From Bryoerythrophyllum caledonicum (taxonomy: Eukaryota > Streptophyta > Bryopsida > Pottiales > Pottiaceae): a stretch of DNA of 64,000 bases. Under the pieces are notes generated by a model. That model was not told the origin of the DNA and searched no databases. It was given only the letters and a program-made list of their open reading frames with translations. Below, one piece after another: positions 20,655 to 59,003 of this stretch (position 1 is the first letter of the stretch; every line of letters begins with the position of its first letter). The stretch covers positions 18,728,990-18,792,989 of the forward strand of contig OZ020518.1 of NCBI GenBank assembly GCA_963971425.1, read 5' to 3'. A program made the translations under genes and the position numbers.

Positions 20655-23489
20655 TTAAATGGTTTTGAATCTCTTACAAGTTCCAATGACATCAATGGGA
20701 TTATTAGGTCGCGTGCGAAGAAATGGATGCATGGGAGCTTTTTGTTTCTTCGTGCCATTTGTAGGCCGCCTAGGTTGTAACCCTAAACCTCCATGAACCT
20801 CGGGGTGATGTATGAAGAGCTTAGACAGAGGTACATTGCCATCACGAGGTAGGCCATTGGATTGGCGTTGCGGCGTTCGGGGTCGCACATGTTTTAAAAG
20901 GGACACCATACCGTGGAAGGATTTCAAATTGGTTGTAGTGACCGTTGCAAGAGGGGTTGCAAATAGAGACCGCCACGCGCGACCTTGCAAGGATGGTTGA
21001 TCCTTAGAGGAGGATGCCTTCTTCTCCGTAACGTGAATGAGACTCCGTGTACCGCCGTAAGTACCGCCCTCCATAGTTTTCTCCCCGAGAACAACCGTGT
21101 CGTCTAGGAATGGCTCTTTTGTTGTTTGCTCGGGGTTCTCTGCAAGTGCGAGATCGTGGACGCCTTCTTCAACACTCTTCAGTGAGGGCCCTTGCATTTT
21201 TTGCCCGTGTAGTGTCGTTGCACGTGAGGATGATAAATCTTTTCCTCCCTTGTCCTTCGTGTCTTCCAGAAGCGGAGTCGGTCCACGACGAAGGATATTA
21301 TTGCTATTGACCATACCGTCTCCATTCAAGTACCGCGCTATGGGCAACAAGTCATCTTCTTTCTCTGCAAGAACGTCGTCATCGACAAAATCATACTCGG
21401 TGATTGGGGCGTCGTGAATATGATCCATACGTTGAGAAGGGTTGCTGTCGATGTCATCGTCTAGATGCTCTGCATTGTAATTGGCAAGGGCACTGGTGCT
21501 TGAATCGTCAGAGTAGTCCGGGTCATCCGACTCACGTGGTTGTGGATCCTCTAAATCCAAGTTCTCCGCGTACCACCTCTTCTCATCCATCAACTTTGCA
21601 TTCGCAAGCAACTTCGAGTTCGTATACACAAAGACCAAGTCATCAGCCCTTCCCGGTAATAACCGATTCCGTTTCTTGTCATGGACGAAAGAGTAGCTAC
21701 TCCAATTGCGTTCGCAAGAAGAAGATGACACTGTATGCGCTAGTATTCTCTTTGCAATTGGTCCAAGGAGCTTTCCACAAGCACCTTCAAAATCCCACCA
21801 AGCATATGGAGAACATTTTTGGTCTTTAGGATCCAACATGTCATGGAATGGTACATCCTTGTTTCGAAATGCGAGGAACTCGTTCACCACGTCCGGGTAA
21901 ATCTTACGATCACATAGCTTTTGTAGTACTCGTTTGCATGCCGTGATGACATCCGGATCATCGGCCAACTCTTTGTTATGGAGTAAATAAGGATTGAGAA
22001 GTGCATCGGTGGAATGTAAATCCGTGGTGATCATCCGTTTCCGTGCGTAGAACTTGTCCTCAGCAATGAACGCTAAATCACTATCGAGACAGAATGGTTC
22101 ATTACGCAATGCTAGGACATGCTTCTGGAGGTCGGGAAGGATGTGCAAAACCTTGGGCATGCAAGGTTCCTTGGCATTGAATTCCCGAAGCGCATACACT
22201 ATAGGGGCTACCATCTCCTGGAAGTTCGTGCACCGCCTCCAGAAACGCTCATTTAGAACCACTCTTTTGATGGCTCGAGAGATTACTACTTTATCTCTAG
22301 CCGAGAGTGACTTCTTGGAGGCGTATGCCCGCCATTCAGGATCAACGATGGTTTGCTCCAATGATTCCTTGATCTTCAGCAGGCGATCTATCATTATGAA
22401 ATTATATGCAAATCTTGTTTGCCCGGGGAGCAATAGATTGAACTTCGCCTCGTGTTTACGAAACACGGCAAGGGGCATTTGCTGATTCTTGACAAACTTA
22501 ACCAAGAACTTGGCCTTCTCGAGAGTTTCTTTTATCCATGTAGCCTTCTCCCAGTCCTCCAACAATAAGTCCATGGCATGCGCGGCACATCCTTGAATGT
22601 ATATGTGTGGATATTTCTTGACGACCAATGCTGAGGCATTGAGCATGACTGGAGCATTGTCAGTACACACCTGAACAATGTTGTGGGGGCCAACTTGTTC
22701 AATGAACTTGAACATGATGGATGCCAGGTACGTAGTGTTCTTTTCTTTGCCCGTAGTATCTACAGCTCCCAAGAAGAGCTCTTTAGCGGGAGACACGAGC
22801 ATTGCATTGCACAAAGGGCGACTAGTCACAGATGTCCACCCATCTATCGCTAGAGTTCCTCCAAACTTCCGAACACTCTCGAACAATCTTTTATTGAGTT
22901 GTGCTTCCAAATCAGCCTTCGCTTGTCCCAACAACCTTGTTCAAATGTCATGGTAAGAGGGTGGGACATATGGTTTTTTTGAAAGAGGCAGTCTTCATCA
23001 CGGCTTCCTTGAATGCAGCATTCCGTGCTATAGCAAACGGCACGTTTGCTTCGTAGAAAAACTTCACCCACACTTTGTCTAGCTCCGGCCGCTCCACTTC
23101 ATGAAAGCCCTCTTTAAGCACGGATTGCCTCACCAATCTGGGGAACGTGGCACCTAGACTCCCTTGTTCGGTGAAGTCGTCAAAGGTGGGGGTCGGTTCA
23201 ACCATGGTTGATGGTAAAATCACCGGGGGGGGGAGCTTGAGTGGACCCTACACAAGAATCTTCGCCGATGGACTTGGGCATGCTATATCCTGAGGCAGGC
23301 GCAGATTTCAATGGTGGGGTGGGGCAATGTTCAGAGAAAAGTTCTCTATTGTGTTTTGGGTAGTGGCCACGACAATTTTTAAACAAAGTCTGTACGCGGG
23401 ATGTCAATTTGGTGCAGAGGCCAACACCGCTATTGCGCTTGCTAGGGAGTACTTCGTACCCGAGATCACTTAGCTGTTGTTCTAGCCTT
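20655..23489 (-). pseudogene. hAT-family transposase gene, main part (DUF659-like and hAT C-terminal regions)
   Basis: The long open part (22934-20655, 759 codons) has the hAT order: AIDGWTS (first Asp, residue 31), VCTDNAPVM (second Asp, 92), GCAAHAMDLLLED (C-x2-H), and SSSCERNWSSYSFVHDKKRN (catalytic Glu 409 and dimerisation region). Upstream, VKFFYEANVPFAIARNAAF matches the start of DUF659-type domains but lies in another frame. Two homopolymer indels (nine G at 23225-23233, seven T at 22974-22980) and a TGA at about 22943-22945, where CGA would restore Arg, break the frame. The 5' end of the gene is at 46139-46245, separated by the CACTA insertion. About 270 residues follow the hAT C-terminal region, acidic then basic, which is unusually long. 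Catalytic residues survive, but the gene cannot be expressed whole here. Confidence 0.8.
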
Positions 23490-23518: not shown

Positions 23519-24064
23519 AGGGCAACTAACGTGCAATTACGTTTTGTGCAGCATCCGACACGTCAACGTTGATGTCCAAAAAAATCCGTTATAATTGACA
23601 TGTGTCGTGCACAACCACATCGTGCCAAGATAACATCGTGCCAATCAAGTGAGAACGCACAGTCAGAGACAACTCGAGAGTAACGGTGACATAACCACCA
23701 CCGTTACCTCTATAAAACAATAATACAATGCACACTTACACACTTTCAGCAATCCAGACTTGGGGAAAAGAAATAAATGATCCATGACCTCGTACACCAA
23801 GAAGTAGTAAGCGGTCTCCAAGTACCCCTTTACTCGCCCCCTTCGCCCGTGCTGAAGCCCCTTTCACACCGGCGAACCACACAGTTTACATGTAAACTGA
23901 ATGATAACCGCGAATGAAAACCTCTCAAAACCATAGAATCACTGTAATCCACATGAAAAGGCGCTAAAAGACTTAACAACACAGGGTAGGCCGGGTGCAA
24001 ATAGAGCCCTATCGTTAATCGCCTCTAACATATTTTTAATGCTAGACTTTGTCCACTCAGACCC
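23519..24064. other. CACTA left subterminal region, possible promoter
   Basis: Contains ACGTGC, ATTACGT and CACGTCAACGTTG words, and a TATAAAA at 23711-23717 preceded by CCACCACCGTTACC. The 3' end of the methyltransferase retroelement must fall somewhere here, but I could not find an LTR. Confidence 0.45.
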
Positions 24065-25465
24065 TCAACGTGCTAAACACTCAGGACAAGACCATTGATC
24101 CACTGGTACTTCCAACAGAGGTGGAGTTAAGCATTCTAAATGCCACCCCGTAGAACATAAGTCACAAATAACCATAGTGGCTGCCCTTTTGGCACTACCA
24201 CACAACCGACAACGTAATCCAGCAGAGATGTGAGAGAGACCAGGGTGTATTGTCCCATCAATGTGTGGCAAGTGACAAGGTGCATAATTACGTGTGTGAT
24301 CCTTCCACTTCTTGCCATCACGACCCTCCAACACTAACACTCCTGAGTCCTTCACCTCACGAACTCTCAAGATTACCCTTCCTGCTGTCACATCCAAGGT
24401 GGTGGGCGCTGCTTGCTGCAAATACACATAGTCTCCAGGTATGAAACGCCGCACCTGCGGTCGATAATCACCTCCCCGTATTGTAGCATAGCGCAACGTA
24501 TCCCGATGTTGAGCAATGGAGAGGTTCTCCAATGCCATGGGCATCACCCTTTTGAACAACTCTGCACGTTGCTCACACACTTGAGCCCACGTGTCTGGAT
24601 TGTCCATGTTAGCCAACACGGTGTCAGCATCTGCTTGAATGGCCTTCGGTAAAACCGGGTGCCTTCCAAACATTAGATAGTAAGGTGAAAAAGACTCCAA
24701 GGATGCCTGTTTGCTGAACCGATAGCCCATTGCTATCCATGGTAGCTGTAAATCCCAATCCTGGTGATGTCCTTTCTTCAAGCTGTACTTCCGGAGCCCC
24801 CTCTTGACGGTTTGCACCATGCGCTCCGCCAATCCATCTGCTTCGGGGTGATCCCTCGAAGTAGTGCGATGATCAATTATCGCTTGCTCACACAAAGTCT
24901 GAAACTCACCCAAGAACTCTCTACCTTGGTCTGTGAGTACCTCTGTTGGAGCTCCAAAGCAACTCAGAACACGGTCAAGAAATGAATATGCAGCTCCCTC
25001 ACTAAACTTATCAGGTAATGCCACTAACTCTATCCATTTCGAGAAATGCTCGATGATTACCAACACATACTTGTTGTGTCGAGGTGTCACTGGCAATGGA
25101 CCTGCAAAATCCAAGCTCCATCTATATCCTAAGCCCGTAATTGGCAAAGGTTGTAACTGAGGCATTGGAGCGTTAAAAGACGCTCGTACCCGGTCACACA
25201 CCATACACCGAGCTACTAGAGCTTGCACTTGGGATTGCATTCCACGCCACCAGTAGTGAATCTGAAGTAGACTATAAGTCCTTCGCACTCCAAAGTGTCC
25301 AAGGTCCTCATGTGTGTCTTCAATCAGTTTCACTCTTTCTATTGGAGTTGGTACTACTTTCTTAGTATCATCTGGCCACACTCTCACAAGGTGAGTCCTC
25401 TCCCACACAAATCTTTTAGCTCGTTGGAGAACCCTATCTCTCTCCTTATGAGACCATGAAGCCAC
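24065..25465 (-). CDS. Integrase with C-terminal PHD finger (Ty3/gypsy polyprotein, 3' part)
   Basis: The integrase is complete: HHCC zinc site (H52, H57, C87, C90 in THEDLGHFG and CMVC), catalytic D119 (SLDFAGPL), D179 (VLTDQGREF) and E214 (DGLAERMV), a D,D-35-E triad. A C-terminal DNA-binding-like domain follows (PGDYVYLQQ, GRVILRVREV). The last 50 residues form a PHD finger: CRLC, CDLCSTGWHLEC, WSCPEC, giving the full C4-H-C3 ligand set. PHD fingers often read histone H3 tails, so targeting of integration to marked chromatin is a reasonable inference. The frame is the same as the RT part upstream and is separated from it only by TAA at 25478-25480. Confidence 0.9.
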   Translation of the reverse strand: MASWSHKERDRVLQRAKRFVWERTHLVRVWPDDTKKVVPTPIERVKLIEDTHEDLGHFGVRRTYSLLQIHYWWRGMQSQVQALVARCMVCDRVRASFNAPMPQLQPLPITGLGYRWSLDFAGPLPVTPRHNKYVLVIIEHFSKWIELVALPDKFSEGAAYSFLDRVLSCFGAPTEVLTDQGREFLGEFQTLCEQAIIDHRTTSRDHPEADGLAERMVQTVKRGLRKYSLKKGHHQDWDLQLPWIAMGYRFSKQASLESFSPYYLMFGRHPVLPKAIQADADTVLANMDNPDTWAQVCEQRAELFKRVMPMALENLSIAQHRDTLRYATIRGGDYRPQVRRFIPGDYVYLQQAAPTTLDVTAGRVILRVREVKDSGVLVLEGRDGKKWKDHTRNYAPCHLPHIDGTIHPGLSHISAGLRCRLCGSAKRAATMVICDLCSTGWHLECLTPPLLEVPVDQWSCPECLAR

Positions 25466-25477
25466 CGTTTCTCTATC

Positions 25478-27181
25478 TTACAAAAACTGCATCACATTCG
25501 TGTCCTCGTGAATATCTCTGGCGCCCCCAGACTCCTCACCTCCATCCTCATCTTCTGTGGCCACAGTAGCTTCCCCGGTGGTGTCTCCATTCAATGCCAA
25601 TATGCCCAGAAAACCCGAACAATGCCAACCTGGCAACGGGTCGGTTTCACCCTCAGTATGCCACCTAGCACGTGTATCATCCGCTTGGTTTGGAATTGGA
25701 TTGCGGCTAAGGCCATCAACATCCATATTAACCAAACCTGCCCTATGAACCACCTTGAAGTCATACTCCATCAACATCAAGGCCCACCGTGCCAATTTTC
25801 CTGTCAATTTATCAGACTCCATCAACCATTTCAACGGCTGATGATCTATAACTAACAAAAATTCGTTACCGTAAAGATAACACCGAAAATGAGCAATTGC
25901 CCATATTGCAGCCAAGCATTCTCCCTCATACGAGCTATATTGAGCCTCAGCATTGTTGTTGGACCGGCTGGCATACGCAATCACAAATTCCTTGCCATCA
26001 TCATCCACTTGCGTCAATACTGCATCAATCCCCAACGAGCTCCAATCTGTGTGTAGCTGGTATGTCCTTCCTGCTATAGGCCTCCGAAGTATTGGTGCTG
26101 ATGCCAAACGATCTTTCAATTGTTGAAAGGCCGCCTCTTGCTCATCTCCCCAGATCCAAGGTTGATCATTCCTTGTCAACATGGTTAATGGCTTGGCAAT
26201 AGCACTACAAGTTTTGACAAACTTTCTATAATAGTTACACAACCCCAGAAATGCTCTCAACCTACTAACATCTCGTGGTCTAGGAATAGACATCACTACT
26301 TCCACTTTGCTAGCTACCACACCTAATCCACTTGGATATATCATGTGGCCTAAATACTCAATGCGATCAAAGTAGAATTTGCACTTACCAGGGTGCAACT
26401 TTAATCCATGAAGCCTCAATCTAGCAAAAACCTCCATCAAGTGTAGTCTATGTTGTTTTCGATTCCTGCTAAAGACAATGATGTCATCAATATAGCATCT
26501 CACGAAATCCAACCCCGAGAATACTCTGTCCATGACTCTTTGAAATTCAGCTGGAGCATTCTTCAATCCAAACGGTAGAAACTTCCATTGAAACAACCGG
26601 TCCTTCCCATCCCTGTCAATGCCCCAGAACGTGGTTTTCTCCTTGTCTTCCTCTCTCAATCCAATCTGGTGGTATCCAGAGCGTAAATCCAACGTACTAA
26701 ACACCTTGGCATGGCCAATGGCCTCAAAATTCTCCTCAGGAGTTGGCATTGCATAACGGTCTGACTTAGTGAATTTATTAATTCTCCTATAGTCACCACA
26801 CATCCTTTTCTCAGTCCAATTACCATAAATGTCCTTCTTGGATGGCATAACCGTTGCTGATGCATACTCACAATCTAGAGGAGCCAACTCCACCAACCCT
26901 GCAGCCATTAATTCTTCAGTGCGAGCACGAATCATCTTCCGCTCCATGTCGCTGTACTTGTATGGCTTTCGATAAATTGGTGCTTCGTCGGTTAAGTCAA
27001 TACGCACTTCTTGCCCCTTCAACACTCCCAAATCATGTAAACTGAAAGCAAAACAATCTAAATACTCCTTCAGGAACTCATGTTCCTCCACCTCCACTGC
27101 TCCATCCGCCAGGCCTACTCTTGGTTTCCAAGTGTCCTTAGTCACCACCTCCTTCGGTTCCTTTAGAGCAGGGTTTTCCAC
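25478..27181 (-). CDS. Reverse transcriptase and RNase H (Ty3/gypsy polyprotein, middle part)
   Basis: RT has STLDLRSGYHQIGL, FLPFGLKNAPAEFQRVM and the catalytic CYIDDIIVFS (YIDD at residues 230-233). RNase H follows with LHTDWSSLGIDAVL, SYEGECLAAIWAI, LLVIDHQPLKWLM and GLVNMDVDGLSR, which supply Asp/Glu active-site residues. No frameshift is visible across 567 codons. It continues in the same frame upstream into the methyltransferase, interrupted only by TAG at 27191-27193 and 27368-27370, and downstream into integrase. This is reverse transcription machinery of a Ty3/gypsy element; the stops make this copy non-functional without readthrough. Confidence 0.92.
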   Translation of the reverse strand: MENPALKEPKEVVTKDTWKPRVGLADGAVEVEEHEFLKEYLDCFAFSLHDLGVLKGQEVRIDLTDEAPIYRKPYKYSDMERKMIRARTEELMAAGLVELAPLDCEYASATVMPSKKDIYGNWTEKRMCGDYRRINKFTKSDRYAMPTPEENFEAIGHAKVFSTLDLRSGYHQIGLREEDKEKTTFWGIDRDGKDRLFQWKFLPFGLKNAPAEFQRVMDRVFSGLDFVRCYIDDIIVFSRNRKQHRLHLMEVFARLRLHGLKLHPGKCKFYFDRIEYLGHMIYPSGLGVVASKVEVVMSIPRPRDVSRLRAFLGLCNYYRKFVKTCSAIAKPLTMLTRNDQPWIWGDEQEAAFQQLKDRLASAPILRRPIAGRTYQLHTDWSSLGIDAVLTQVDDDGKEFVIAYASRSNNNAEAQYSSYEGECLAAIWAIAHFRCYLYGNEFLLVIDHQPLKWLMESDKLTGKLARWALMLMEYDFKVVHRAGLVNMDVDGLSRNPIPNQADDTRARWHTEGETDPLPGWHCSGFLGILALNGDTTGEATVATEDEDGGEESGGARDIHEDTNVMQFL

Positions 27182-27367
27182 CCTTGGTTGCTATTGAATC
27201 CCCTGTGAAGGAGACTCCCCTCCTTCCTCCTCAATAACACTCCCAAGTCCTTCCAATTGACCCAATTTGTCAATTTCTTCCATGTGAAGAGCTGTGTGTT
27301 CTTCCATGTGAAGAGCTGTTTGTTCTTCCAAGAAGATCTTCTCCACAATATCCTCCAAATCCATCCT
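27182..27367 (-). pseudogene. Linker between methyltransferase and RT, with a tandem octapeptide
   Basis: In the polyprotein frame this encodes an acidic Glu-rich segment including two copies of TALHMEE (24-bp repeat), then EEEGGESPSQG, and ends with TAG at 27191. It probably is a flexible or protease-cleaved spacer. Confidence 0.6.
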
Positions 27368-28567
27368 CTAGTGAGCCAATCTGTTCCCTTCACTCCAGTT
27401 CTCCCCTCCATAGTGAAGATCTGTTGCTGTGGTAGTCTCAAAATTATTTGCGGTATCCCACATGTTCCATGGATGAGGTGCAAAGGTCCTCTCGCCCCCA
27501 ACCACCTTGCTTGTCACCCTGACAGAGGCAAGTGGTTCTCCTGCCGCCCGCAACTCATAATATCCCATGTAACTAGTTAAACTAGAAGCTAACCGCTTCT
27601 GTTCTGCAACCACTAATGAAACAATCCAAGTCAAGCAATTCAAATCCATGGCCTGACCAAGTAAAAATCGTCTCTGTGGTTCTGAAATCCCAGGCACATC
27701 GGTGGTGCCATTGGGAAACCCCATGGCTCTCTCTCTCTCATCTGCATTGGGCTCTACCATCTCCTGAGACACTGAATCCCAAACAAGTCCTGGTCCATTA
27801 TCCTTGAAAGCATAAGACCTTGCAAAACTAACCAACGTGGGCAAGGCCCTACGTGGTTCCCCCTTGCGGTTAACCACCGCTAATGGGGCCTGGTCATCGT
27901 GATACACGCGCCGTGGTGTCCTGTGAGGATCCAAAATGTCACTCACATACACATCTGGGCGTTTAATACGACCCACCGCGGACTGTAGCAACTCTGCTGG
28001 TGCTAGGTTTGTCCACCACAAGCGTGGTCTATGTGCCCTGGACCCTACTGCAGCCGCATCAATTAACACTGGCAGTCCTAGCGTCTGATGGATCCTATGC
28101 ATACTCTCGAGTGTCCTGGATCTCGAACTGCTCACCATGGGCACATTCTCCACAATATAACCAGGCGGTTGCCTCTGAGAAGTCTGAAGCAATCGAAGCA
28201 CTCGAATCATGTCAAAGAACCTGGAAGAATGGGAATCCTTTAACCCATTCTGATTGCCTGCCATAGACATGCCTTGGCAAGGCCATCCTGCAATGACAAG
28301 GTCCACATGACCCACTCGGTGAATGTCATCGTCTGACAACAAGGAAATATCACCCACAAGTGTAGAGAAGGAGGTTTTGATGGCACTAGTGGCCAACAAT
28401 TCTGGGAATTGAGTCCTCAGCCTCCGTGTGTGACGTTTGGCCACATACCTTGATGTTTCATCCACATCCACGTAAATGTAGCGCTGAACCTTGATCCCAG
28501 CTTGTAAAACAGCTGCCAAGCCTGTGCCAATTCCTCCGAAGAGCTCCAATAATACGATACCATCCAT
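27368..28567 (-). CDS. C5 DNA methyltransferase, DNMT3-like, encoded in a retrotransposon
   Basis: The 399-residue frame has the C5-methyltransferase motifs in standard order: I LLELFGGIGTG (residues 6-16, SAM binding), II YIYVDVDE, IV GWPCQGMS with the catalytic Cys97, VI VENVPM (139-144), VIII AHRPRLWWTNL (178-188), IX region with AMGFPNGTTD (281-290), and X LLGQAMDLN (302-310). GIKVQRYI, AHR-R and MGFP are closer to DNMT3 than to DNMT1/CMT, and there is no motif permutation as in DRM. In the element's original form it was fused in frame between protease and RT. After the upstream insertion it starts at its own ATG (28567). It would transfer methyl groups from SAM to cytosine. The frame is uninterrupted to TAG at 27368. 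Confidence 0.92.
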   Translation of the reverse strand: MDGIVLLELFGGIGTGLAAVLQAGIKVQRYIYVDVDETSRYVAKRHTRRLRTQFPELLATSAIKTSFSTLVGDISLLSDDDIHRVGHVDLVIAGWPCQGMSMAGNQNGLKDSHSSRFFDMIRVLRLLQTSQRQPPGYIVENVPMVSSSRSRTLESMHRIHQTLGLPVLIDAAAVGSRAHRPRLWWTNLAPAELLQSAVGRIKRPDVYVSDILDPHRTPRRVYHDDQAPLAVVNRKGEPRRALPTLVSFARSYAFKDNGPGLVWDSVSQEMVEPNADERERAMGFPNGTTDVPGISEPQRRFLLGQAMDLNCLTWIVSLVVAEQKRLASSLTSYMGYYELRAAGEPLASVRVTSKVVGGERTFAPHPWNMWDTANNFETTTATDLHYGGENWSEGNRLAH

Positions 28568-28605
28568 TGGTGCCTTCCAATGGATAGTAGCAGTGTCTAA
28601 CGGAG
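28306..28605 (-). repeat. 300-bp direct duplication, proximal copy (start of the methyltransferase)
   Basis: Nearly identical to 30351-30650; one difference I see changes Ser39 to Ala. It covers methyltransferase residues 1-87 and 38 bp upstream. Confidence 0.93.
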
Positions 28606-30350
28606 TGTCCTGATGGAAATTCTTCCATCATGTACATACAAGTATTAGTCTTTATATGTGTGGATTTTAATAAGTAAGGAGTTGGGATAAAAAGGTTTGG
28701 TCGTGGTGAGAACCACGGTTCGAGGATTTGGGCAAGTGTTAGCATGTAGGTGCTGCACCGCTTTTGTCACTGCTCAGGGGGGTAGGTAGCGAGTTGACTG
28801 GTATTTTTCCTGCCTCACTAGCGAGCCAAGCCGTGGGCCGCTCAACCACTCGACGGGCTCGATCGGGTTCGAACCCGGACTGGCGGCGGCCACTGACCAC
28901 GACATTTCCAGCCAACCAAGTCCACGACTTGGCGATCAGGTTGTGCGAATCAACACCTTTATACGTCCGTTCCATCAGCTATCTTACGATAAGTTTTTAT
29001 TTATTTATTTTTTTAGTTATTTTTTTTATTTTACTTATCTTGTTGGTTGGAAGGTCTAAATTTTTAGTCTTCCAATAAATAAAAGACTAGGGGATTTATG
29101 TGGTTGAAAGTGGAAAGGATAAGAAAGTAGCAAAGTACCTTGTGGGGTACTTTGGATAGGGTGACATGGGCTGGAGTGCCCACGTCCACTTGAGGTGGAA
29201 AAGTTGGGAAAGATATTCCTTAGTGTGTGTGTGTGTGTGCGGGTGAGAGAGGAAGGGTTTGGAGCAGAACTTGGACTGTGTGTAACTCGTTGAGCTTGAA
29301 CGATATGGAATTGAAAATTTGTTATCTTGTTTCTTGTTTCGAGAGCTTTCTATGCTCGTTTTAAATTTTGAATTCAGAATTGTAGAGAAAAAGTTATTGA
29401 GGTTTTAATTCTGTGAAAACCCGAGGCCATCCATTGAGAGGCAGAGGTTTCGAGGAGCCACAACTTTTTCTGTAGTTCTCAATTTGATTTGAGATTTGGA
29501 GGGTGTATGCGTCTCTATCTTAGCTTTCTAGAAAGATATCACAATTGAAATTTGGGGCTGTGAGCAAGAAGTTATAGAGATCTGAATGAATAGGGGTAGG
29601 CAGAACTTTGATTGTCCATAACTTTCGGACAGTAGTTTAGATTGACTTGAAATTTGGAGGAGTGTTAGTTGTCTAAATTTGCTTTCCAGAGAGCTACTAT
29701 ACTTAGTATTTGAAGTTTTGAGTCATCTGTGTCACTTGTTTGAAGGTTACAGCCTTGGTGAAACTTTTCCATTGTGTTTTTGAACACTTCTTTTGAGTTT
29801 CTTAACACTTCTTTTGAGTTTCTTAGTGTTTTTGAACACTTGAAGACTTTGGAGTTGAAGGATGGAGGAATTGAAGACTTGAGGCTTGAAGAGAAGAGAA
29901 GATAGAGACAAGTGTGTTGTGGCTTGTGGTCCGATTTCTTTTTTTGTGATTCCAAGCCAGCTTTGGAGGCTAGTTGTATTTCAATTCTGTTCTTGTAAAC
30001 TCTGTTGCGGCGAAGTGGGGTTAATTGCCCACACGGTCGTGTTTATGTCGTTCCCACCGGTGAGGCACGTTTGCTGGTCACCGTGGGTTTGAATTTTAGG
30101 AGCCAATCTTTCGGACGGTTTCAGCTTGTGGTCTGGCCGTCCCGTTTTACCCGTCCGAGGCCGTGGTTTCTTATCACCCACCTTCACCCTTAACCCTTTA
30201 GAGCCACCACAAGATAGGCCTACGGGGAGGAGTTTGAAGACTGAAGACCTGAAGATTTGAAGATACGATTGGATTCCCGAGCAAACAATCTCCAGTCGCA
30301 GCCAGATTCCCGGCGAATTCTCAAGGCGCTCCCCTCTCTACACGACATCA
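28606..30350. mobile_element. 1,745-bp LTR-like insertion (TG...CA) in the methyltransferase
   Basis: Starts TGTCCTGATGG and ends CACGACATCA, so it has LTR-type borders, and it has no coding capacity. It includes a (GT)n run at about 29224, tandem CTTTTGAGTTTCTTA words at about 29790, and a 14-bp palindrome CGGGTTCGAACCCG (28864-28877) that resembles a tRNA B box. It is flanked not by a short target duplication but by 300-bp direct copies of the methyltransferase start. A solo LTR is the simplest reading; its element is not otherwise present in the window. Confidence 0.6.
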
Positions 30351-30650
30351 CATGACCCACTCGGTGAATGTCATCGTCTGACAACAAGGAAATATCACCC
30401 ACAAGTGTAGAGAAGGAGGTTTTGATGGCACTAGTGGCCAACAATTCTGGGAATTGAGTCCTCAGCCTCCGTGTGTGACGTTTGGCCACATACCTTGCTG
30501 TTTCATCCACATCCACGTAAATGTAGCGCTGAACCTTGATCCCAGCTTGTAAAACAGCTGCCAAGCCTGTGCCAATTCCTCCGAAGAGCTCCAATAATAC
30601 GATACCATCCATTGGTGCCTTCCAATGGATAGTAGCAGTGTCTAACGGAG
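30351..30650 (-). repeat. 300-bp direct duplication, distal copy (truncated methyltransferase)
   Basis: In frame with the protease upstream. The methyltransferase breaks off after HRVGHV, before the catalytic PCQ motif, and runs into the 28606-30350 insertion. Confidence 0.93.
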
Positions 30651-31617
30651 GCCCCATGTCTTGGTCAACTCCAGTCTCTTGTTGCATCTGTGGTAGCATA
30701 GATTGTTGCCATGCCTCTTCCACTGCTAACTCCGCGGCCTCCCTCAACTGGGTGGTGTTACTCCACGCCGCCTCAATCCCAGGTTTGTATCCTTCTTCCT
30801 CTCCACCACTCGTGTTGCCCATATAGACATCCACCTTCGCTGAAATGTGGTCAACCATAGACGGATCCTCAAAACCTGTCTGAAACCATGAAGGTTTCAT
30901 GTTCATACATCCAGAGAAGGCAAACAGATCAGCTAAGTTACCAGTAAGAACTCGAACAAATCGAGCTGGCAGCTGAGCCTTCCGCCCATCTCTTGCTTGC
31001 CATTCTGGTCTATAGCTTGTTGACTCCTCCCAGAAATCCAAGGTGAATCCCATAGGATATAGCACCGCCGAGCCCACCAAGACATCATACGACTTGGCCT
31101 CCGTAACGATTGCCTTCACCTTCATAGAACTGGCATCTGCCACATCACTTTGGTTGAGTTGTAACACCAACTCAGCCCTTGTGATCCCTGTGGCTTGCTC
31201 TGTACCCCCCGTGGATGTGCTAATGGTCCAGGAACACTTCTTCAAAGTATCCCCAGTTAATCCCAACCCTTCCATAGCTGACGCTCCCAGCATCAAAGGT
31301 TGAGCTCCCGAATCCAGAAGCACAGGTCGAGGTACAAATATCTTCCCCTTAGGCCCAACGAGTTGGAAAATACCTTGGGAATTATCAACCACTATCACAC
31401 CAGGGGTAATGGATGATCTCTCAATCGCAGGTCTAGCGGCCATTGTCTTCACACGCATGGCTGCTGAAAGCAGCCCCTTTACGTTGTCACTCTGGCTCTC
31501 CTCTGCCTGGATTATCTCTGTCTTCAACACATTAACGCCCGTGGAGTTGTCCAACTCACACATTGAGGCTATATTCTTGAAAACTTCTACCACACTGAAG
31601 CCATCCTGTGACAACAT
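30651..31617 (-). CDS. Retropepsin-type protease of the methyltransferase retroelement
   Basis: VPRPVLLDSGAQPLMLG carries the DSG aspartyl-protease signature, with a later ILV-type segment (SYDVLVGSAVLYPMGF) matching the second conserved region of retroviral-type proteases. The frame continues without a stop into the truncated methyltransferase copy (to 30351) and then a 43-residue tail encoded by the insertion, ending at 30220. Upstream it joins the gag C-terminus in the same frame, with TAG at 31618-31620 between them. The protease would process the polyprotein. Confidence 0.8.
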
Positions 31618-31620
31618 CTA

Positions 31621-32277
31621 AGCAGAAAATAACGAGGCTTTCCACACGGAAGTAGTTGCCTCCATAACTGCTCTAGAACCTCCTGTGAGTCCTCCAGCTC
31701 GTGGTAAGGCTTGAATGGGAGATGCCACTAGTCGTGGTGGAGGTACCATGGATGACGTCGGTACCATCTCTTCTAACGTAAAGGATTGAGGCAACCTGGC
31801 TTATCGATTATCCTTTCCATGGTGGGGATCCAGAGTTGGACTAGCTCCACGTCGAACAATCTTAGAACTTGGAGTATGACTCCGTGTGAAGGCATAGGCC
31901 TCCTGTGTGCCATCTCTGATGGCAAGTGCTATACCACTCAACATAAAGTCTCCAAATTCATTATCTACGGAGCTAAACCCGCCCCCAGCATGAAAACTGG
32001 GAGTAACCTGAGGCTTGCTACCTACCACATTGGTATTGGCACTCATAGCTTCCATCTTGGCCTCCAACTCGGCAAATTTAGCCTTCCAACTCTTCTTCTC
32101 CCCTCCAGTGGTCTTGGACTCCTTGTCCTTGCCTCCTTTAGCTCCCTTGCTCCCCGTTGGCTTCAACTCTGGATGAAGCTTCCAGCAGCTGGCCTCTGCA
32201 TGCCCCTTGGCACCACAACCCGAGCAAAAACCTCCAGTGTGAGGTGTGGAAGTCTTACCTTCCTTGCAATCCTTCCT
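31621..32277 (-). pseudogene. Gag C-terminal region with second zinc knuckle
   Basis: Same frame as gag and protease. It begins with CSGCGAKGHAEASC, an intact C-x2-C-x4-H-x4-C knuckle, then a Lys-rich segment and KFAELEAKMEAM. TAA at 31801-31803 and TAG at 31618-31620 interrupt it. Confidence 0.7.
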
Positions 32278-33050
32278 CTAGTGTCCTGGCTTCCCATATT
32301 TGAAGCACAAGGCACCAGACTCTGCAATATACGAAGGAATGGCCACCTTGGCCACCTTAACCTTCTCTGGGACCTTCTCTTCACGTTTGAAAAAGCCCAT
32401 GGCTGCCTTCTCTTCCAGAAAGTTTATCTCAATTCGCTCTGAAGTCTCAAAAACAAACCGTAGTGTAGTGGGTACTCCCAATCGCAACGCCTCATTGCGA
32501 ACCAAGGTCATCAACTCCTTATCCAGGATACTGTACCAATGTTGCACTGCCTGTTGTTCTGTAACTCCGTAAGTAGCTGAGATTAGTCTCCTTAATCTCG
32601 CATGAGCCTCTCTCAGAGACTCGTCACCTCCACGTGTGAAGGAACGTAGGGCCTTCATCTTATCCGCCCTCTGTCCTTGGTAGTCTCTATGGAGTTGCAC
32701 GAAAAATCCCACGGTGGGATTGAATGGAGGTGGATGATTTACCAGTGCCTCTGGGTGCTCCACATCCTCCGTTGAGCTCGTGCCTTCCTCCATCTTCCCC
32801 TTGGACAAGAGTGGGGGTGTCATCCTCGGTGCTCCACCGAACACGTCCACGTAGTTCGGTGCATAGAAGTCCCTCCAGGCCATGATTTCGGTGAAATGAG
32901 CTGCCTCGAACTCTCCGTAGTCCGCCAGCGGCGCTCTCCCAGACACCCAAACAAGGCTCTCCACACCATATACGGATTGAAGTTGGAGTTACGCGACTTC
33001 TAGAGTTCACACCACATGGTGAACTCCCTTTTGAAGTCATCGACTTCGAT
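32278..33050 (-). pseudogene. Gag (capsid/nucleocapsid) of the methyltransferase retroelement
   Basis: The frame holds a retrotransposon-gag-like helical region (FVQLHRDYQGQRADKMKAL, RRLISATYGVTEQQAVQHWY) and ends in a first zinc knuckle, CFKYGKPGH, in which the second Cys is Tyr (TGT to TAT), followed by TAG at 32278. Upstream of 32964 the frame shifts, apparently by a GT repeat in ATGGTGTGGAG, into EVDDFKREFTMWCEL, stop, KSRNSNFNPYMV. The Mutator-like element begins at 33062. Confidence 0.7.
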
Positions 33051-33061
33051 GGTGCCCGTGG

Positions 33062-33125
33062 GACCAAGCTATTTTGCGTGCCTAATTTTGCGAGCCGCGA
33101 GCTGCGAGCCTAGGGTCGCGAGCCT
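33062..33125 (+). repeat. Mutator-like element left inverted end
   Basis: GACCAAGCTATTTTGCGTGCC followed by GCGAGCCGCGAGC and GCCTAGG, inverted at 40998-41063. Confidence 0.8.
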
Positions 33126-34849
33126 CGTTGGCAAAAATTGAGTTCTTAATTTGGAAAAGGCATTAAAAAGTAAAAGTTTTAAGGTTTTTTTAGAATGACA
33201 TTGGTTAAATGCATTAAATTAATGGACCTATTACCGTGGAGGAAGGTGGAAAAATTGTATGCAGGAAGGATCTAAAAAATGACAATATTGTTGATTTTTT
33301 TTTTAAAAAAGGGACTTATGACCGTGGAGTCTAGGGTTCTATAATGAAAGGAAGATAGGATTTCTAAGGTTATAAAGCTTTGGAGCATGATTTAGGATAT
33401 AAAAAGGGAGAGTGAGAGGGAAAGAGAGGAGTCAGAGAGGAAGGAGTGGTGGAGAGGAAGGTTTCAGAATTTGGAGTGGTAGTGGTTCTAGGAATCCTGA
33501 GATCGAAGGAAGTGGGATTAGTGTAATTTAAGGAGATGTCAAGTAGAGTACATAAGGTTTTAGAGAGGGAGCGTTGGGGACAATGAGAGTGACACACCCA
33601 AAAATATTGATTGAATTTTGGGTACTGTAGAACAAAAGATTTAGAATTAGAATTAGCGGCCTAGAAGGCTTGGAAGAGTCTGATAGCAAGAGGCAAGATC
33701 TAGAGATAGACGACTAAATTTGGTGGATGAAGACCCAAGACATGGTAAATTTGGGAGATTCAAAATGTGTATAGGCGATAAAGCTAGTGGGACAAAGAGC
33801 AAATGATTTAGAGTATGGAACTATTGGTAAAGGACAAATAGTAAGTGTTTAGAACTAAAGATAAGGGAGAAAAGTGGAGAGATATGAAGGATAGTTTGTG
33901 GACAATTGACGACCCGACAATGTAGTTTTTGGAACCAGAAAAATTAAAAAGAATCTTGGAGGGGGACATTGGAAGAGTGAGATATTAAACTCGACTTCTA
34001 TATATTTGCAAGGGAAGTGTGAATCTCCAATCTCAGTCTCCCTCTGTCCCGTTATAGTCACTAAGTATAGACTCGCGAGTGATGGACAAGAACTAGTACA
34101 AATGACAGAAGTGGCCCTTTTAGTCTCACCGCCTTCTATATAGAATTTGGAGTGACACTATACAAGGTCAAAATATTATAAATGACAGCTATGCACTATA
34201 GTGTTTAAACAGAAAAATCTATAAATTTTGCTTAATATTTCCAACAGAAACTAGATGTGTGAATGAACACAGATACCTCGAGATCTAAACCACAGACAAT
34301 TTTGAAGATGTAATAGAGGTGGTAATAATAAGCCTATGCACTCATTTTACCAAGTGACTTCTTAGACATCTTTGTAAACATTGGGCAACTGCTGCTTAAA
34401 AACTTGTTGATCGTCATCAAACACCTAGAAACCTTGCATATGTTTCAAGACTCGAAACTCACAATACAACCTAGGCTTGGAGGCGGTATAATTAGAATCA
34501 TGCGGATTTTTTCAATCACGGAAAGAACAGATGCGCAACTGTTATAGTATATAGTAAATGAAGCGGACGAAATTCTTTCCAAATCTCTTTAATGGATGCT
34601 CTACAGGATTGGAAAGGGCAAGATAATCATTGATATTCACGGGTATGCCTTCTCCAAAAAAACCTTTAAGGGGACAATGCCTCACACTCACTCTGACGGA
34701 ACTTGACGTTTTTTAGGGCGAATGTCTCCATCCTGCTCTACTTTGATTTCATTTCAATTGGTCAGAAGTCTGGGATATGTAGCTTAGATTGAAATTACCG
34801 TTGCGGTGTACCTATAATACAACTATGAGTGTTGTTGTTGCAAAAGAAG

Positions 34850-36110
34850 AATTTCATTATTTTCATTCTCAATTTCTTGAGATTGTCCATTAGTCCCGTG
34901 TATGTTGAGGCAGATGTACTTCTTCCATGCTGCAGAATCCTGCCCACATACTACTTCCTTGTATCGACCTATAGAGCAAAGCTTGCTTTATTGGATGTCT
35001 TTGGAAGCCTTCCAGTGTGCTATAGCTTTTCATCACAGATAGTCTCATGCACAGCTTTGAGGTGCTCATTCCGGAAATAAGTCGCAATTGAAACCGATGG
35101 AAGTACTTCAGTTGCTTCAAGAGAGCAAGTGCAGTGCGGTGGCCTCTCTACAATTGTAAGGTTAGCAATCATTGGATCAATACAAAAAGCCTTTATCTTT
35201 AAGCGTGACGCCCTTATTTTGTTGAGGTGATGCTAGTCTAATTCTAATCTTGGAGAAGAAACCATTTTTTTTCCAGAGATACAAAAACTTCCTTACCTTA
35301 CAGGTTAAGATTGCGAGTACAAACTTATCTGCACCGAGCATATTGGCGAGTGCGGCATGTTTTCCAAAGCCTTGAATGATACAATAGGCAATACAAAGAG
35401 TGAGTTAATCCTTCCCATGATCGTTGCCTAGTTTTTTCGCCTTTCAAATATTAGTACTAGACAACAATCCGGATGCATATCTAGACCATATCATCCACAG
35501 CCGCAACATGCATATCATAATTTTTGTTTGAATATAGTAACCACTTGTTGTCCACCAATTCCGTCAAATATATGATGACATCTAAACATGTTTGAACAAC
35601 TTCTGATAGATTATTGATGACTAATTATAGTTAGTACAACGTTTGGCATGGCAAAGTGATAAAAGAACTTAGGATACAAAATGTCACTAGTAGCAGCATA
35701 AGATAGTATATTAGATAAGTATGACAACCGCCAAAAGAAAGTACCGATGTTGGCAGTCCTTCGATAGTGACCTCTAGCAATGAATAATATAGTACTCACA
35801 GTTGGATGCCCAAACCCGCTCTACTCTAAAGTAATATTGATTTTTGCATCTTGCTGCTAAATCATAATGTTGAGCATTAATTCTTTGAGATTTGGATTTG
35901 AATTGGCATGCCTAGTTGAAAGCTCATTGCATCATCTCCAGAACACTTGCTAAAATACCACATTTTAGAGTACATATCAAAAGTCACAATTGTCATCACG
36001 GGACGGTAAATAGAGTTGTAGACATTGGCAACTATAGTGGTCTAAGACTAAACACTTTTGTCAAGGTTAAACATCATCCGTGCATCCTCTAAGTCATCTC
36101 TAAGTTGCAT
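34850..36110 (-). pseudogene. Decayed coding-like fragments inside the Mutator-like element
   Basis: Minus-strand segments read as protein across several frames: SIATYFRNEHLKAVHETICD (about 35.0 kb), HPTVSTILFIARGHYRRTAN with FFWRLSYLSNILSYAATSD (about 35.7 kb), and ANVYNSIYRPVMTIVTFDMY (about 36.0 kb). I do not recognise the protein; the pattern could be a transposase or a captured host gene. Confidence 0.35.
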
Positions 36111-37293
36111 AATCTTAATTAAATCAACCCTGATCTTAAGTTCTATCTCCGCCATCTTGAAGATCAAAAAATTATCGACTACTATCGCTTGTCCTGGGAA
36201 ACGCTTCTTCTAAAAAAATGCCCAATTATTAAAGCTTGTTAGTTTAGTAATGCCACCCATTACTCCAAAACAACGCATATATCTAAAAGCGGTTATCTCA
36301 TTTTAAATACTAGGATAAGACATTTGCTTGAACTTGACCAAGACAAAGACAAGATTCTCATATGCAAGGATCTTGTGAAGAATATTTTTTGGTCATAAAA
36401 ATAATGTCTGAGGTAATCTTTGCATGCTCCAACCACTAAAGAGGTGCCGACATCGGCACCCTTTTATAGAACCTCTCCTATATTTTGAAAGAAACCTCCC
36501 AAGGGGTTGCCGACATCGGCTCTCTACAAGAGAATCCATTCTATTTGTGAAAAAAAAATCTTCTAAAGAGGATGCCGACATCGGCGTCAAACTAGAAGGT
36601 CATTTGTATCTCTAGAAAAAAACACCTTGATATGGAATGCTGCCATCAGCACCCTCTAAAACACCTTTCCTATGTTTTGAAAAAGAACCTTTAGGGAAGG
36701 TACAAACATTGGCACTCCATTAGAAGGCCCTTCATATTTTTAAAAAGACAGCCTCCAATGGGGTTGCCGACATCGGCACTCTTTTGAAGGATCTTTCTTA
36801 TGTTTAAAAACGGAACCTCCAAAGTTGACCCCAATATCGACATTCCTCTAAATAGCCCCTCTTAGATTTAGAAAAGAGACCCCCGAAGGTAATGCCGACA
36901 TCGGCACTTGTTTAAAGGAGCCTTCTCATTTAAAAAAATCAATCTGTAGAGGAATGTCGACAACGACGTTCCTCTAGAGGGTCCTTTATATCTTTGAAAA
37001 GGAAATGTGAGACGTCTAAGGGAGGTGCCGACATCGGCACCCCTACGACGCCCTTACATTTTTATTAAAAGAACCTCCAAAAAGAATTTTAGACATTATC
37101 ATCCCTCAAAAAGACCTTTCCAATTGTTAAAAAGAGAACCTCTAAAGGTGGTGCCGACATCGGCACTCCACTAGGCACTCTTCCTTTGTTTACAATGAGA
37201 ACCTCTAAAGGGAGTGCCGACATCGGTACTCTACAACAAGGCCTTTCCAATCTTTGAAAATGGAACTTCCAAAAAGAAGTGCCGACATCGGCA

Positions 37294-37519
37294 CCCTCTG
37301 AAATTTACATTCAAATTTTAGAATTTTTTGAGGGGATTCTAGAATGGTATTACACTTTATCATCCAACACTCTAACAGTAAGTTATCAACGGATGAAGTC
37401 TTGGAATTTACTACTTCATCCATTGATAACTTATTCTTAGATTGTTGAATAATAAAGTGTGATACCATTTTGGAATTCTCTCAAACAATCTTAGAGCGTG
37501 AATGTAAATTTTAGAGGGT
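37294..37519. repeat. Foldback unit 1 within the palindrome array
   Basis: ACCCTCTGAAATTTACATTC at the left is inverted as GAATGTAAATTTTAGAGGGT at the right. The whole unit is self-complementary around the centre (GGATGAAGTC and ACTTCATCC). Confidence 0.85.
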
Positions 37520-37597
37520 GCCGATATCGGCACTCCTTTTTAGTAGTTCCATTGTAAAAGATTGGATAGGCTTTCTTGTAAAGTGCCGATGTTAGTG

Positions 37598-37821
37598 CCC
37601 CCTAGAATTTACATTCACGCTCTAGAAAATTTTAAGAGAATTCCAAAATGGTATCACACTTTGTCATCTAATGCTTTAAGAATAAGTTATCTTTGGATGA
37701 AGTCTTGGAATTTATAACTTCATCCGTAGATAACTTATTCTTAGAGTGTTGGATGATAAAATATGATACCATTTTGGAATTCCTTGAAAAATTTCTAAAG
37801 CGTGAATATGAATTCTAGGGG
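37598..37821. repeat. Foldback unit 2 within the palindrome array
   Basis: Diverged copy of unit 1 with ends CCCCCTAGAATTTACATTCA and its inverse, and the same GGATGAAGTC/ACTTCATCC centre. Confidence 0.85.
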
Positions 37822-38339
37822 GTTGCCGATGTCGGCATCTCCTTTAGCGGATCTCTTTTTAAACATAGAACGGGCCCTCTTGTGGATTGTCGATATCGGC
37901 ACTCCCTCTGGAGATTTTTTTAACATATAGGAAGGACCATTTAGATGAGTGTCAATGTGTCCCTCCCTTAAAGATTCTCTCAAAAAATAAGGGAAGAGCG
38001 TCCTTAGGAGTGCCGATATCGGCACCATTTTTACAAGTATGATGATGATGGAGAATATTGCATGATATTATATTGAATCTTATGAAATCTAATCAATCAA
38101 TTACGCGATTTATTTAAATTCAAATCCTTATCAACTCAAATTTGATTCAAATATGCGCTCGCAAATGCCTTGCTTGTCTCTATTTCCTTTGTCCAAAATC
38201 AAAGGTGCAAGTGCTTGTGATTGACAAAGTATTGCTTGTAGTCATCTTTTCCACTAATATTGTAGGTCATGGTCATTGATCAATGGCAATTCACATGGCA
38301 ATTCTCTAATTTCGAATGATCGTTAATGACAGAGATTAT

Positions 38340-38650
38340 CGTAGTCTTCAGCGACCTCACTCCATACTTAATGCATGCATTAAAGAGTTCATCAAAATAG
38401 TCATTAATATCTTCCTGAAAACTCTATTGGTGTTTTTTGCAACTCGCCTAGTCCAATCACAGTATATTCCATCAAGAACATACAACAACACATTGAACAG
38501 TTTTAGACCGTCCATGGAAGCAATTCTTTCCCCCATCTTATGCTTCACCATTGCTCTATATACCGCCAAATACATTGAGAGAACTTACTTTTGTGCCTTC
38601 ACTGATTCTACAATTGTATGAAATGATACACTTATAGTATCTCCAACCAC
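38340..38650 (-). pseudogene. Coding fragment, related to the one at 39.9-40.1 kb
   Basis: An open stretch encodes AVYRAMVKHKMGERIASMD and FNVLLYVLDGIYCDWTRR. The fragment at about 39.9-40.1 kb shares the pattern A-K-V-x2-M, K-x2-M-x-E-x-I-x-S, V-L-x-YIL-x2-IY-x-D, so the two are diverged duplicates of an unrecognised protein. Confidence 0.4.
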
Positions 38651-39088
38651 CAATTACACGAGGACCTTGTAATTTCATTAAAATGGAAGCAATTGTAATT
38701 TCAAATATTTTCCCTCCCCATGCTAATTTGCTCTAAGATGTCCAAATTTAGCGCGGAGTTTTATATCATGTCTCCTTCATCTTTAATTCTATCGTATGAC
38801 TATATTCAAATCTCAAGTGCCAATAATTACAGTAGCAATTAGATATTGAAACCACAACTCTCACAGCCTCCTGAATACTCTCATCTCTGGCATTGATCCA
38901 TAGCCAATCTTAAGACTCTAAAATTCAAAAAGACAAAGATCTATTGAAAGAGACTTAGAAACCCAGACTAACCGTATGATCTAGTCTCTCTCAACTCTCA
39001 TTTTTTTATTAAAGCCGTCCAACTCTATAAGAATAGGACAATTGCGTTTGCAATTAATTTTAGTGTTTATTTCTCAATATTGAGTAGA

Positions 39089-40150
39089 TCAACCTAACAT
39101 TTGCAATTCACAAAGCTCATCAATTGTAATGCCCCTATCACCGGCTCTATTGAGGTGCTTTTTGAATTGATCATTAATAATTATTGATTTTCTGAATTTA
39201 TTTTGTTTGATGGACGCCGTTGAGAGGCTTCGTTTCATAGATTTGACGTCTTCTTTGACGTCTTCTTTAAGATTGAACAATCGCTCCACTTGTTGATTCT
39301 TTTATGTTTATGTATTTTGTCATGTTTATGTATTTTGTTGATTCTTTTATATTTATGGTCTACCTGGCATCTTCTTCATGATCGAACAATCCGCAAAGTT
39401 TCAAAGAAAACTGGATTTATTAAGTTAGTTGGAGTTCTTATTACTTCCTCAAACATTATTCTTTGTTTCTTTATTTGACAAAAATTTGTATGACTTCATT
39501 GGGCTAATGATGGAGCATATCTCTCCCGATTGAGACTTTGCTATGGCACTGTGGAATGTTGCAATTGCATATGATATCAATTGCCCGTGTTTTGAAAGAA
39601 AACCCATATCCTCACGGACTTTGTTTAAAAACGTGGGTGTAAAACGACTACCAGTATCCATTTCCTTTGTCGACCTTGACAAGTGGTGCTGAACTTAATG
39701 CTTCATGTAGCTCTTGGAAATCTGCATTCTATTCGAGTTCATGGTCATCATCGTACTTTGGCACCAATACACATTGCAATTGCACGCGTCAAATGATTCT
39801 GGCAAATGATTGTGGCCTCCAGTGCCCGTGCTTCATACTTTACACATGCAACAAATAGCTCATCAAATAGCATATCAACCGCTTTCCAAAAATCTGGTGG
39901 CGTAATCAACAACTCAACGGGTCCATCAAAGTAAATCCGTCAAAGAATATACAAGATCACATCAACCTCCGAAGAGATTGCTTCCCTCATATTATTCTTG
40001 AATATTATTTCAAGTACTTGAGAGTTCATCAAAATGACACACTTATATGCCTTCACCAAATTATCAACCGCATTGAAGGTGATGTCAATGTTATCACCCA
40101 CTTCCAGTTGCATTCAAAGTCATAGTGTAGTAAAAAATGTAGCTTTGAGT
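39089..40150 (-). pseudogene. Longer decayed copy of the same unrecognised gene
   Basis: The minus strand reads VGDNIDITFNAVDNLVKAYK, MREAISSEVDVILYIL, stop, then DFWKAVDMLFDELFVACVK. Further on, in shifted frames, FTPTFLNKVREDMGFLSKHG and SIIINDQFKKHLNRAGDRGI follow, ending at a stop at 39089. Composition is like a helical cytoplasmic protein; no motif known to me. Probably captured by the Mutator-like element. Confidence 0.45.
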
Positions 40151-40997: not shown

Positions 40998-41063
40998 TAG
41001 GCTCGCAATCCTAGGCTCGCGGCTCGCGGCTCGCGAAGTTGGGCACGCAAAATAGCAATCCCC
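40998..41063 (-). repeat. Mutator-like element right inverted end
   Basis: Reverse complement begins GGGGATTGCTATTTTGCGTG, then GCGAGCCGCGAGCCGCGAGC. Confidence 0.8.
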
Positions 41064-41074
41064 GGTGCCCGTGG

Positions 41075-42007: not shown

Positions 42008-42229
42008 GGTCCATAATTAGAGTGTCAAATATCCTTGAAATTCTTACACCATATTAATAGAGTCCCTGCGAGCTTCCAAACGTCCACTTTGCACCTACCA
42101 AGCGCTGTGTATGCAATCACCCCTCATAATAAACCTTGATCTTCACATGCAAGCCTTTCCTGACCTCATACGAGTATGGCAACCACACATGCGGTCCCAG
42201 TGCGGGTATCGTGCTCAAATCTGAGCATA

Positions 42230-49601: not shown

Positions 49602-49616
49602 ATTGATCTTTTGGAG

Positions 49617-56601: not shown

Positions 56602-56690
56602 AGCCCGTGCCCTTCCTTACACATTGCACTAGAATCAAGAGTTTTGAAGTGTTTTTGATGTGAAATTGTCGAGAAAATTAAGGAGTTAAT

Positions 56691-58998: not shown

Positions 58999-59003
58999 AT
59001 TGA

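Follow-up and report, generated by a model that had tools for sequence, protein, structure and literature searches.

A Ty3/gypsy-type retrotransposon of Bryoerythrophyllum caledonicum carries a DNMT3-type methyltransferase and a PHD finger separated by a conserved in-frame stop codon

Cytosine methyltransferases (MTases) have been described within retrotransposons (PMC5890265), as an earlier note on the DNA analysed here had pointed out. KnitGypsy-Dnmt3 of Klebsormidium nitens combines a Ty3/gypsy pol with a Dnmt3-type MTase that is under purifying selection, and its repeats follow the DIRS layout according to the figure legend of de Mendoza and colleagues (PMC5890265). SymbioDIRS-Dnmt3 also has a Dnmt3 MTase in a retroelement pol, in two domain orders, but belongs to the tyrosine-recombinase DIRS-type elements of dinoflagellates, and no PHD is named in the text (PMC5890265). 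Split direct repeats of the form A1...B1-A2-B2 characterize the tyrosine-recombinase elements PAT, Ngaro and VIPER (PMC4157794, PMC6681497), and in tobamoviruses UAG-CAR-YYA serves as the signal for type I readthrough (PMC3542737). Here we describe a Ty3/gypsy-type retrotransposon from a 64,000-nt stretch of B. caledonicum contig OZ020518.1 (the whole stretch is called the window) in whose polyprotein a conserved in-frame UAG separates a DNMT3-type MTase from a PHD finger. The fusion is real, old and selected.

An MTase-bearing Gypsy element with DIRS-like repeats is known already in KnitGypsy-Dnmt3 (PMC5890265), and the present element shows the same combination. In contrast, PHD has 0 occurrences in the main text of that paper, and no readthrough stop, target duplication or palindromic junction was found described for KnitGypsy-Dnmt3. 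New here are the conserved UAG-CAR-YYA, DIRS-like repeats together with 4-bp duplications, and, in relatives, a second MTase position, between RNase H and integrase. The split direct repeats are shared with PAT-like elements, Ngaro and VIPER; unlike these, the element has a DDE (rve) integrase and 4-bp target duplications. As in chromoviruses, a histone-reader module is found at the integrase C-terminus, but it is a PHD in place of a chromodomain, and it is joined by an MTase, split repeats and a stop between MTase and reverse transcriptase (RT). The stop and its six-base consensus are those of tobamovirus-type readthrough (PMC3542737), placed here between MTase and RT, and their use is predicted. 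No PHD-bearing MTase Gypsy element and no such readthrough was found among the papers listed in searches of the open-access literature, outside which most subscription papers lie, so that prior reports are possible.

The element frame lies on the minus strand of the window. MTase, RT, RNase H, integrase and PHD, all named in the earlier note, scored above the Pfam cut-offs in window frames; the gag and protease (PR) that it had also named fell below them, yet could be aligned with an intact relative, L001 (values listed below). The order PR-RT-RNase H-integrase, with an H2C2/rve integrase, is that of Ty3/gypsy elements, and the MTase is inserted between PR and RT. No chromodomain was found after the integrase by Pfam in the window; the PHD is there instead. 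The extent given in the note, 24065–33050, was too short: comparison with sister copies places the start at 44855, in an A repeat, and the end at 23603, in a B repeat. The note had further described one frame broken by substitution stops and a single insertion. This held over the stretches checked, with six in-frame stops in 32988–30349 and 28627–24068 (32280 TAG, 31803 TAA, 31620 TAG, 27370 TAG, 27193 TAG and 25480 TAA), but the stop at 27193–27191 is no lesion, the reading frame of gag has a further break between 32988 and 33059, and a duplicated stretch of 300 nt from the MTase start brackets the 1745-nt insertion. The window copy, itself degenerate, nested and dead, belongs to a Ty3/gypsy-type retrotransposon that is abundant and was recently active. 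Its parts are as follows.

44485–44855 (−): A1, left terminal repeat, about 371 nt, beginning TGTC at 44855 (blastn with A of copy L066, 95%; boundary read directly)
41064–44484 (−): 5' untranslated region and gag start (aligned to copy L081 in separate pieces)
33060–41063 (no strand): nested insertion in gag, 8.0 kb, with 9-bp target duplications ACGGGCACC and terminal inverted repeats at 33068–33125 and 40999–41056
32278–33059 (−): gag, interrupted at its start by the 8.0-kb insertion (Retrotrans_gag 5e-3, below cut-off; 36% to L001 over 84 residues)
31801–32277 (−): nucleocapsid region, zinc-knuckle-like by eye (31% to L001 over 74 residues; no Pfam match)
30649–31617 (−): aspartic protease (DSG) and linker (Asp_protease_2 1e-3, below cut-off; 35% to L001)
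30349–30648 (−): MTase start with motif I, first copy, 300 nt (self-comparison of the window)
28604–30348 (−): inserted repeat, 1745 nt, with a tRNA-like B box by eye (partly present in copy L063 at another site)
27368–28627 (−): DNMT3-type C5 cytosine MTase frame (PF00145, DNA_methylase, 5e-14; PCQ and ENV present); the element's own part runs from about 28603, the first codons being insert
27191–27193 (−): conserved in-frame UAG followed by CAA-CCA, the presumed leaky stop between Gag-PR-MTase and RT (alignment with copies and L001)
25478–27190 (−): RT (YIDD) and RNase H (Pfam RVT_1 2e-32, RNase H 6e-33)
24212–25477 (−): integrase with H2C2, DDE core and C-terminal region (Pfam Integrase_H2C2 3e-16, rve 5e-13)
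24077–24211 (−): PHD finger, residues 423–467 of the 24065–25477 frame (PF00628 2e-9)
23835–23846 (−): polypurine-tract-like GCGAAGGGGGCG immediately before B (read in the window)
23603–23834 (−): B repeat, ending ...GACA on the right; the window copy has a single B and lacks A2 (comparison with sister copies)

L001 is a 9285-nt contig in a cyanobacterial metagenome-assembled genome (MAG), of which it is evidently a eukaryotic contaminant. A profile search through contigs of bacterial and archaeal genomes gave two loci, of which L001 was the closer (the second, L002, 33%). It holds an open Gag-PR-MTase frame across the contig ends, then TAG, then an open 1047-aa RT-RNase H-integrase-PHD frame in the same phase. 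The ends share a 127-nt repeat, as expected from repeats collapsing into a circle in assembly. Identity to the window copy is 54% for the MTase, 61% for RT-RNase H and 66% for integrase-PHD.

A search of the same genome (437 Mb, 894 contigs) with PF00145 gave 123 scored matches of 1055 first-look candidates, not each of them confirmed as a copy of the element. Twenty copies were sampled, every third of the first 60 among the 122 rows other than L031. MTase, RT, RNase H, integrase and PHD follow in this order in 18 of the 20, not always in one frame; the exceptions are L061, with the MTase only, and L073, which ends in RNase H. When the integrase-PHD frame was searched and the best 90 of 5683 candidates were scored, all 90 reached residue 467 or further and thus span the PHD, and an open 1041-aa frame without internal stop was present in 23. 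Because only these best-scoring 90 were covered, PHD-less copies are possible among the remaining candidates. By the earlier note, genomic copies lacking either domain would point to a chance fusion; the pairing is shared by copies and relatives, so that it withstands this test. Row L031 itself has at 1501–2460 (−) a full-length C5 methyltransferase (E 2e-62) unlike that of the element, from a host gene or a contaminant.

Selection was measured on ten copies chosen for domains in one frame, nine of which were compared by codon (Nei-Gojobori, stop codons skipped); pairs are non-independent and intact copies are favoured by the choice. Between two subfamilies (5 versus 4 copies, 20 pairs) the MTase gave a synonymous divergence (dS) of 1.65 and a nonsynonymous divergence (dN) of 0.074, a dN/dS of 0.04, and the corresponding ratios were 0.03 for RT, 0.02 for RNase H, 0.03 for integrase and 0.07 for PHD. 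Within subfamilies (16 pairs) dN/dS was 0.16–0.34, and against L001 synonymous change was saturated for MTase, RT-RNase H, integrase-PHD and PR. MTase and PHD are both under purifying selection. The element was recently active, as judged from an A1/A2 identity of 97.8–100% in 7 copies (one over 200 nt only).

The DNMT3-like assignment made in the earlier note agrees with a 24-row profile (window plus 23 relatives), whose best match was DNMT3A (1e-22), ahead of DNMT3B (3e-20), DRM-type (3e-11), HaeIII (2e-7), HhaI (3e-7) and tRNA/DNMT2-type enzymes (5e-6). The PCQ and ENV motifs are present as the note had seen them, and the window copy also has the C-terminal ERERAMGF...LLGQ block. Motif IV reads PCQ in the element, in place of the PCN of DNMT3A. 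The catalytic cysteine and the Glu-Asn of ENV are retained in 24/24 sequences of alignment A3, the second domain order included. From that order, the MTase of P0272 alone gave weak DRM matches only against the PDB (E 1e-3), so the DNMT3 kinship of its group rests on likeness to other members.

The PHD has the C4HC3 zinc ligands, and across 94 matches the eight ligand columns are 95–100% conserved. The presumed first cage position, before the third ligand region, is Met in 85% of them. Best PDB matches include PHF12, KMT2C/D, KDM5B, KDM5A, CHD4, PHF21A and UHRF1, several of which we take to be readers of H3 unmodified at K4 or R2. The 94 matches came from 275 retrieved proteins, many fetched with the integrase-PHD query, which biases the rate. 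A PHD appears to be common on integrases of the wider group and may by itself serve to target insertion; the Ginger1 DNA transposon, with a Gypsy-like integrase, also carries one (PMC2836005).

The window stop at 27193–27191 reads TAG-CAA-CCA and the same place in L001 reads TAG-CAA-TCA, so that 8 of 9 letters agree, whereas the 60 nt before are 37% and the 54 nt after 24% identical (ungapped). Thirty-nine distinct copies of the same genome were surveyed, namely loci L032–L060 (n=29) and ten from the every-third sample. TAG was found in 37/37 alignable copies and TAG-CAR-YYA in 35 (33 CAACCA, 1 CAATCA, 1 CAACTA); the two others read CAAGCA and CAACCT. In L060 and L061 the site fell outside the coverage of the alignment; L060 (C1:42765149) has no stop between MTase and RT and a long open frame, 1517 or 1550 aa depending on the search. 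As a control, CARYYA follows 6 of the 1631 TAG triplets of the window. Metagenomic Gag-PR-MTase frames end similarly in 14/16 proteins (P0241–P0256), judged by eye, with P0247 and P0250 as exceptions. With 35 of 37 aligned copies and L001 showing its consensus, the UAG between MTase and RT fits type I readthrough.

Classical long terminal repeats (LTRs) were not seen around the element in the self-comparison of the window, which is accounted for by its split-repeat layout: instead of two LTRs flanking an internal region, there is A1 on the left and B1-A2-B2 on the right. In three copies with long flanks, A1 measures 367–371 nt and B1 231–233 nt, followed by A2 and B2. The element ends are TGTC and GACA, and the B1/A2 junction reads GACA-GC-TGTC. 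This palindrome is present in 13/20 copies (10 with the whole right end, 3 with a truncated or partial one), a single B without A2 in 5/20 and neither in 2/20. A2 and B2 join at the same place in 11/11 copies compared, with two subfamily spellings and, in L063, an additional substitution. A search for left ends in 15 copies, limited in 12 of them to a 1.5-kb stretch at fixed distance, found 10; no B stood beside A1 in the 10 inspected. Direct 4-bp target duplications occur in 10/10 copies with both ends seen.

L064 GGTT, L065 AGGG, L066 CCTC, L068 AAAT, L069 AACT
L072 CATG, L074 AGTG, L075 AGTG, L079 ACTA, L080 AGAA

The single-B copies L065, L069 and L080 are among those with perfect duplications, and in the window copy 3 of 4 letters match. 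GCGAAGGGGGCG stands directly before B1 in 11/13 sister copies, as it does before B in the window, and CACGACAGCTGTCA is the same in L001. No Phage_integrase (tyrosine recombinase) match was found in the window element frames scanned, some short frames being outside the scan, or in the four 5' frames of L081. From these repeats one might propose that the DDE integrase acts on circular DNA, that a particle-packed DNMT3 marks this DNA and that the PHD aims the integrase, which we regard as doubtful. The joined-ends palindrome GACA-GC-TGTC would be cut to leave recessed CA ends and inserted with a 4-bp stagger. Circles with two end copies would then give A1...B1-A2-B2, and one-copy circles A...B, as in 5/20 copies and the window; single-B copies would alternatively arise by deletion between B1 and B2 after insertion.

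Named MTase matches came from Calypogeia fissa, Riccia sorocarpa, Sphagnum troendelagicum and Marchantia polymorpha, and weakly from Closterium; named integrase matches came from Klebsormidium nitens, Calypogeia, Riccia, Marchantia and Haematococcus lacustris. No named K. nitens MTase was among the matches listed (best 120 of 172 in one search, and likewise in a second), and two Klebsormidium proteins, P0134 and P0158, are of integrase-PHD type. In Riccia, consecutively numbered proteins hold MTase-RT (P0112) and RT-RNase H-integrase (P0176), and the Marchantia gene model P0184 contains MTase, integrase and PHD parts. MTase and integrase-PHD share one frame in 9 of the 275 retrieved proteins: three are RT-RNase H-MTase-integrase-PHD, five have the MTase just before the integrase, and the ninth is P0184. 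In the MTase tree (43/64 eligible rows, 6/8 second-order rows being long enough; no outgroup), a 100/99 branch sets apart the rows with the second domain order, in which the MTase follows RNase H and precedes the integrase. In the integrase tree (55/93 rows; no outgroup, the intended one scoring below threshold) the second-order rows fall weakly in the half with Haematococcus (82/40), and the window, L001 and Calypogeia lie in a 100/99 group of 10. Two direct scans of a viral contig collection gave no match; a profile scan of it gave 28 loci with 22–39% identity. Retrotransposon parts filed under bacterial MAG names (P0051, P0222, L001) reflect eukaryotic contamination of MAGs.

Other features of the window copy and its surroundings are recorded here. 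Just before gag, a 168-aa frame at 41510–42016 (−) resembles a 216-aa frame of L081 (3708–4358, +); neither had a Pfam match, and it is a possible extra small protein. The 8.0-kb insertion at 33060–41063 resembles a Mutator-type element in its 9-bp duplications and inverted ends, and an imperfect inverted repeat at 37200–37916 has many local copies around 36430–38026. The 300-nt duplication around the 1745-nt insertion (28304–28603 versus 30349–30648, 99.7% in the self-comparison) was considered as a transposon target duplication and rejected, since it is much too long for one and the inserted repeat recurs at a different site in L063; our guess is recombination between two copies with the inserted repeat. 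That repeat is mobile, occurring in two element copies (window and L063) at different sites near the MTase start. Outside the element, the window has a hAT transposase-like frame of 761 aa at 20655–22940 (−; DUF659, Dimer_Tnp_hAT), a second Ty3/gypsy-type element at 47133–51353 (−) with RT, RNase H and integrase and no PHD match, and a tandem array of about 14 copies of a 74-nt unit at 53876–54911. An Rfam scan of the window gave no match at gathering thresholds.

Taken as a whole, the anatomy is best explained by an MTase made on the Gag side of a leaky UAG, methylation of the element's cDNA and PHD-steered insertion, a reading to which we give a probability of roughly 0.6. Ribosomes would mostly terminate at the UAG to give Gag-PR-MTase, and a small share would read through to Gag-PR-MTase-RT-RNase H-integrase-PHD. 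The MTase would thus be produced in Gag-like amounts, packed into the particle and able to methylate new cDNA, so that the copy would enter the nucleus resembling the host's own methylated repeats. After protease cleavage the PHD is predicted to stay on the integrase and to bind histone H3 tails, most likely with unmodified K4, a preference proposed because the cage position is Met and the nearest solved relatives include such PHDs. It would steer insertion to chromatin poor in H3K4 methylation, in the manner proposed for chromodomains in chromoviruses, and the integrase would join the element by its TGTC and GACA ends to target DNA cut 4 bp apart on the two strands. The earlier note had suggested that methylation may be coupled to the choice of integration site. 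The anatomy argues against a single bifunctional MTase-PHD protein: the MTase stands last in the short Gag-PR-MTase and the PHD, on the integrase, last in the extended product, a conserved stop lies between them and a protease is in the polyprotein.

Several observations weigh against this reading. The assignment of the PHD to H3 unmodified at K4 is tentative. The metagenomic open reading frames P0092, P0262 and P0267 fuse MTase to RT without a stop, so readthrough is not universal; all three fall outside the 96/94 group of 33 rows that contains the window and L001 in the MTase tree. Beyond the stop, an in-frame Met first occurs at residue 82 (window) or 117 (L001), and since in the window it precedes the Pfam RT core (residue 126), internal initiation is compatible by position. 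Relative P0002 has no catalytic cysteine (alignment A1), and P0268 has an altered motif around it. CpG values of 0.47–0.55 in the window copy, versus 0.73–0.84 in L001, say nothing on self-methylation because they are equally low outside the element (0.44 in window 56001–64000). In a yeast assay of the Klebsormidium relative there was no methylation, a result its authors judged inconclusive (PMC5890265).

The MTase might instead act in the nucleus, on genomic copies or host chromatin, with self-silencing and less host damage as the outcome. A benefit of this kind to the host was raised by de Mendoza and colleagues (PMC5890265), but the position of the MTase on the Gag side of the conserved stop favours packaging and a selfish gain from self-silencing would be hard to select, so we consider nuclear action unlikely. 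That the UAG is a plain terminator, with RT-RNase H-integrase-PHD made by internal initiation, re-initiation or splicing, we hold to be distinctly unlikely: the Marchantia gene model P0261 spans the MTase-RT stop region, the position of the first window Met would allow it, and gag-pol stops without CARYYA are reported in other elements (PMC3441728), but both sides share one frame, the type I motif is retained exactly, and between the stop and the first Met stands the conserved block CFAFSLHDL, at 46 (window) and 50 (L001). RNA methylation, raised for LINE-borne DNMTs (PMC5890265), or mere nucleic acid binding is quite improbable for an MTase nearest to DNMT3A/B and far from DNMT2, with its catalytic residues kept throughout A3, though not in P0002. 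A chance fusion or assembly artefact confined to the window copy, which the broken state of that copy and the 300-nt duplication around its insertion might suggest, is ruled out for practical purposes by the pairing in 18/20 copies, 90 integrase matches, L001 and nine proteins.

Selection thus retains both a DNA-methylation writer and a histone-reader module within a single mobile element that has relatives in several green lineages. The conserved stop may set the writer at the level of Gag and the reader at that of the integrase, and the element may mark its own DNA copies and choose its landing sites. The combination of split repeats and a DDE integrase reopens the question of circle junctions as integrase substrates. 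With several copies young and nearly identical, the reason why retroelements carry DNMTs can be put to the test in living hosts, among them Marchantia, in which relatives of the element have been annotated.

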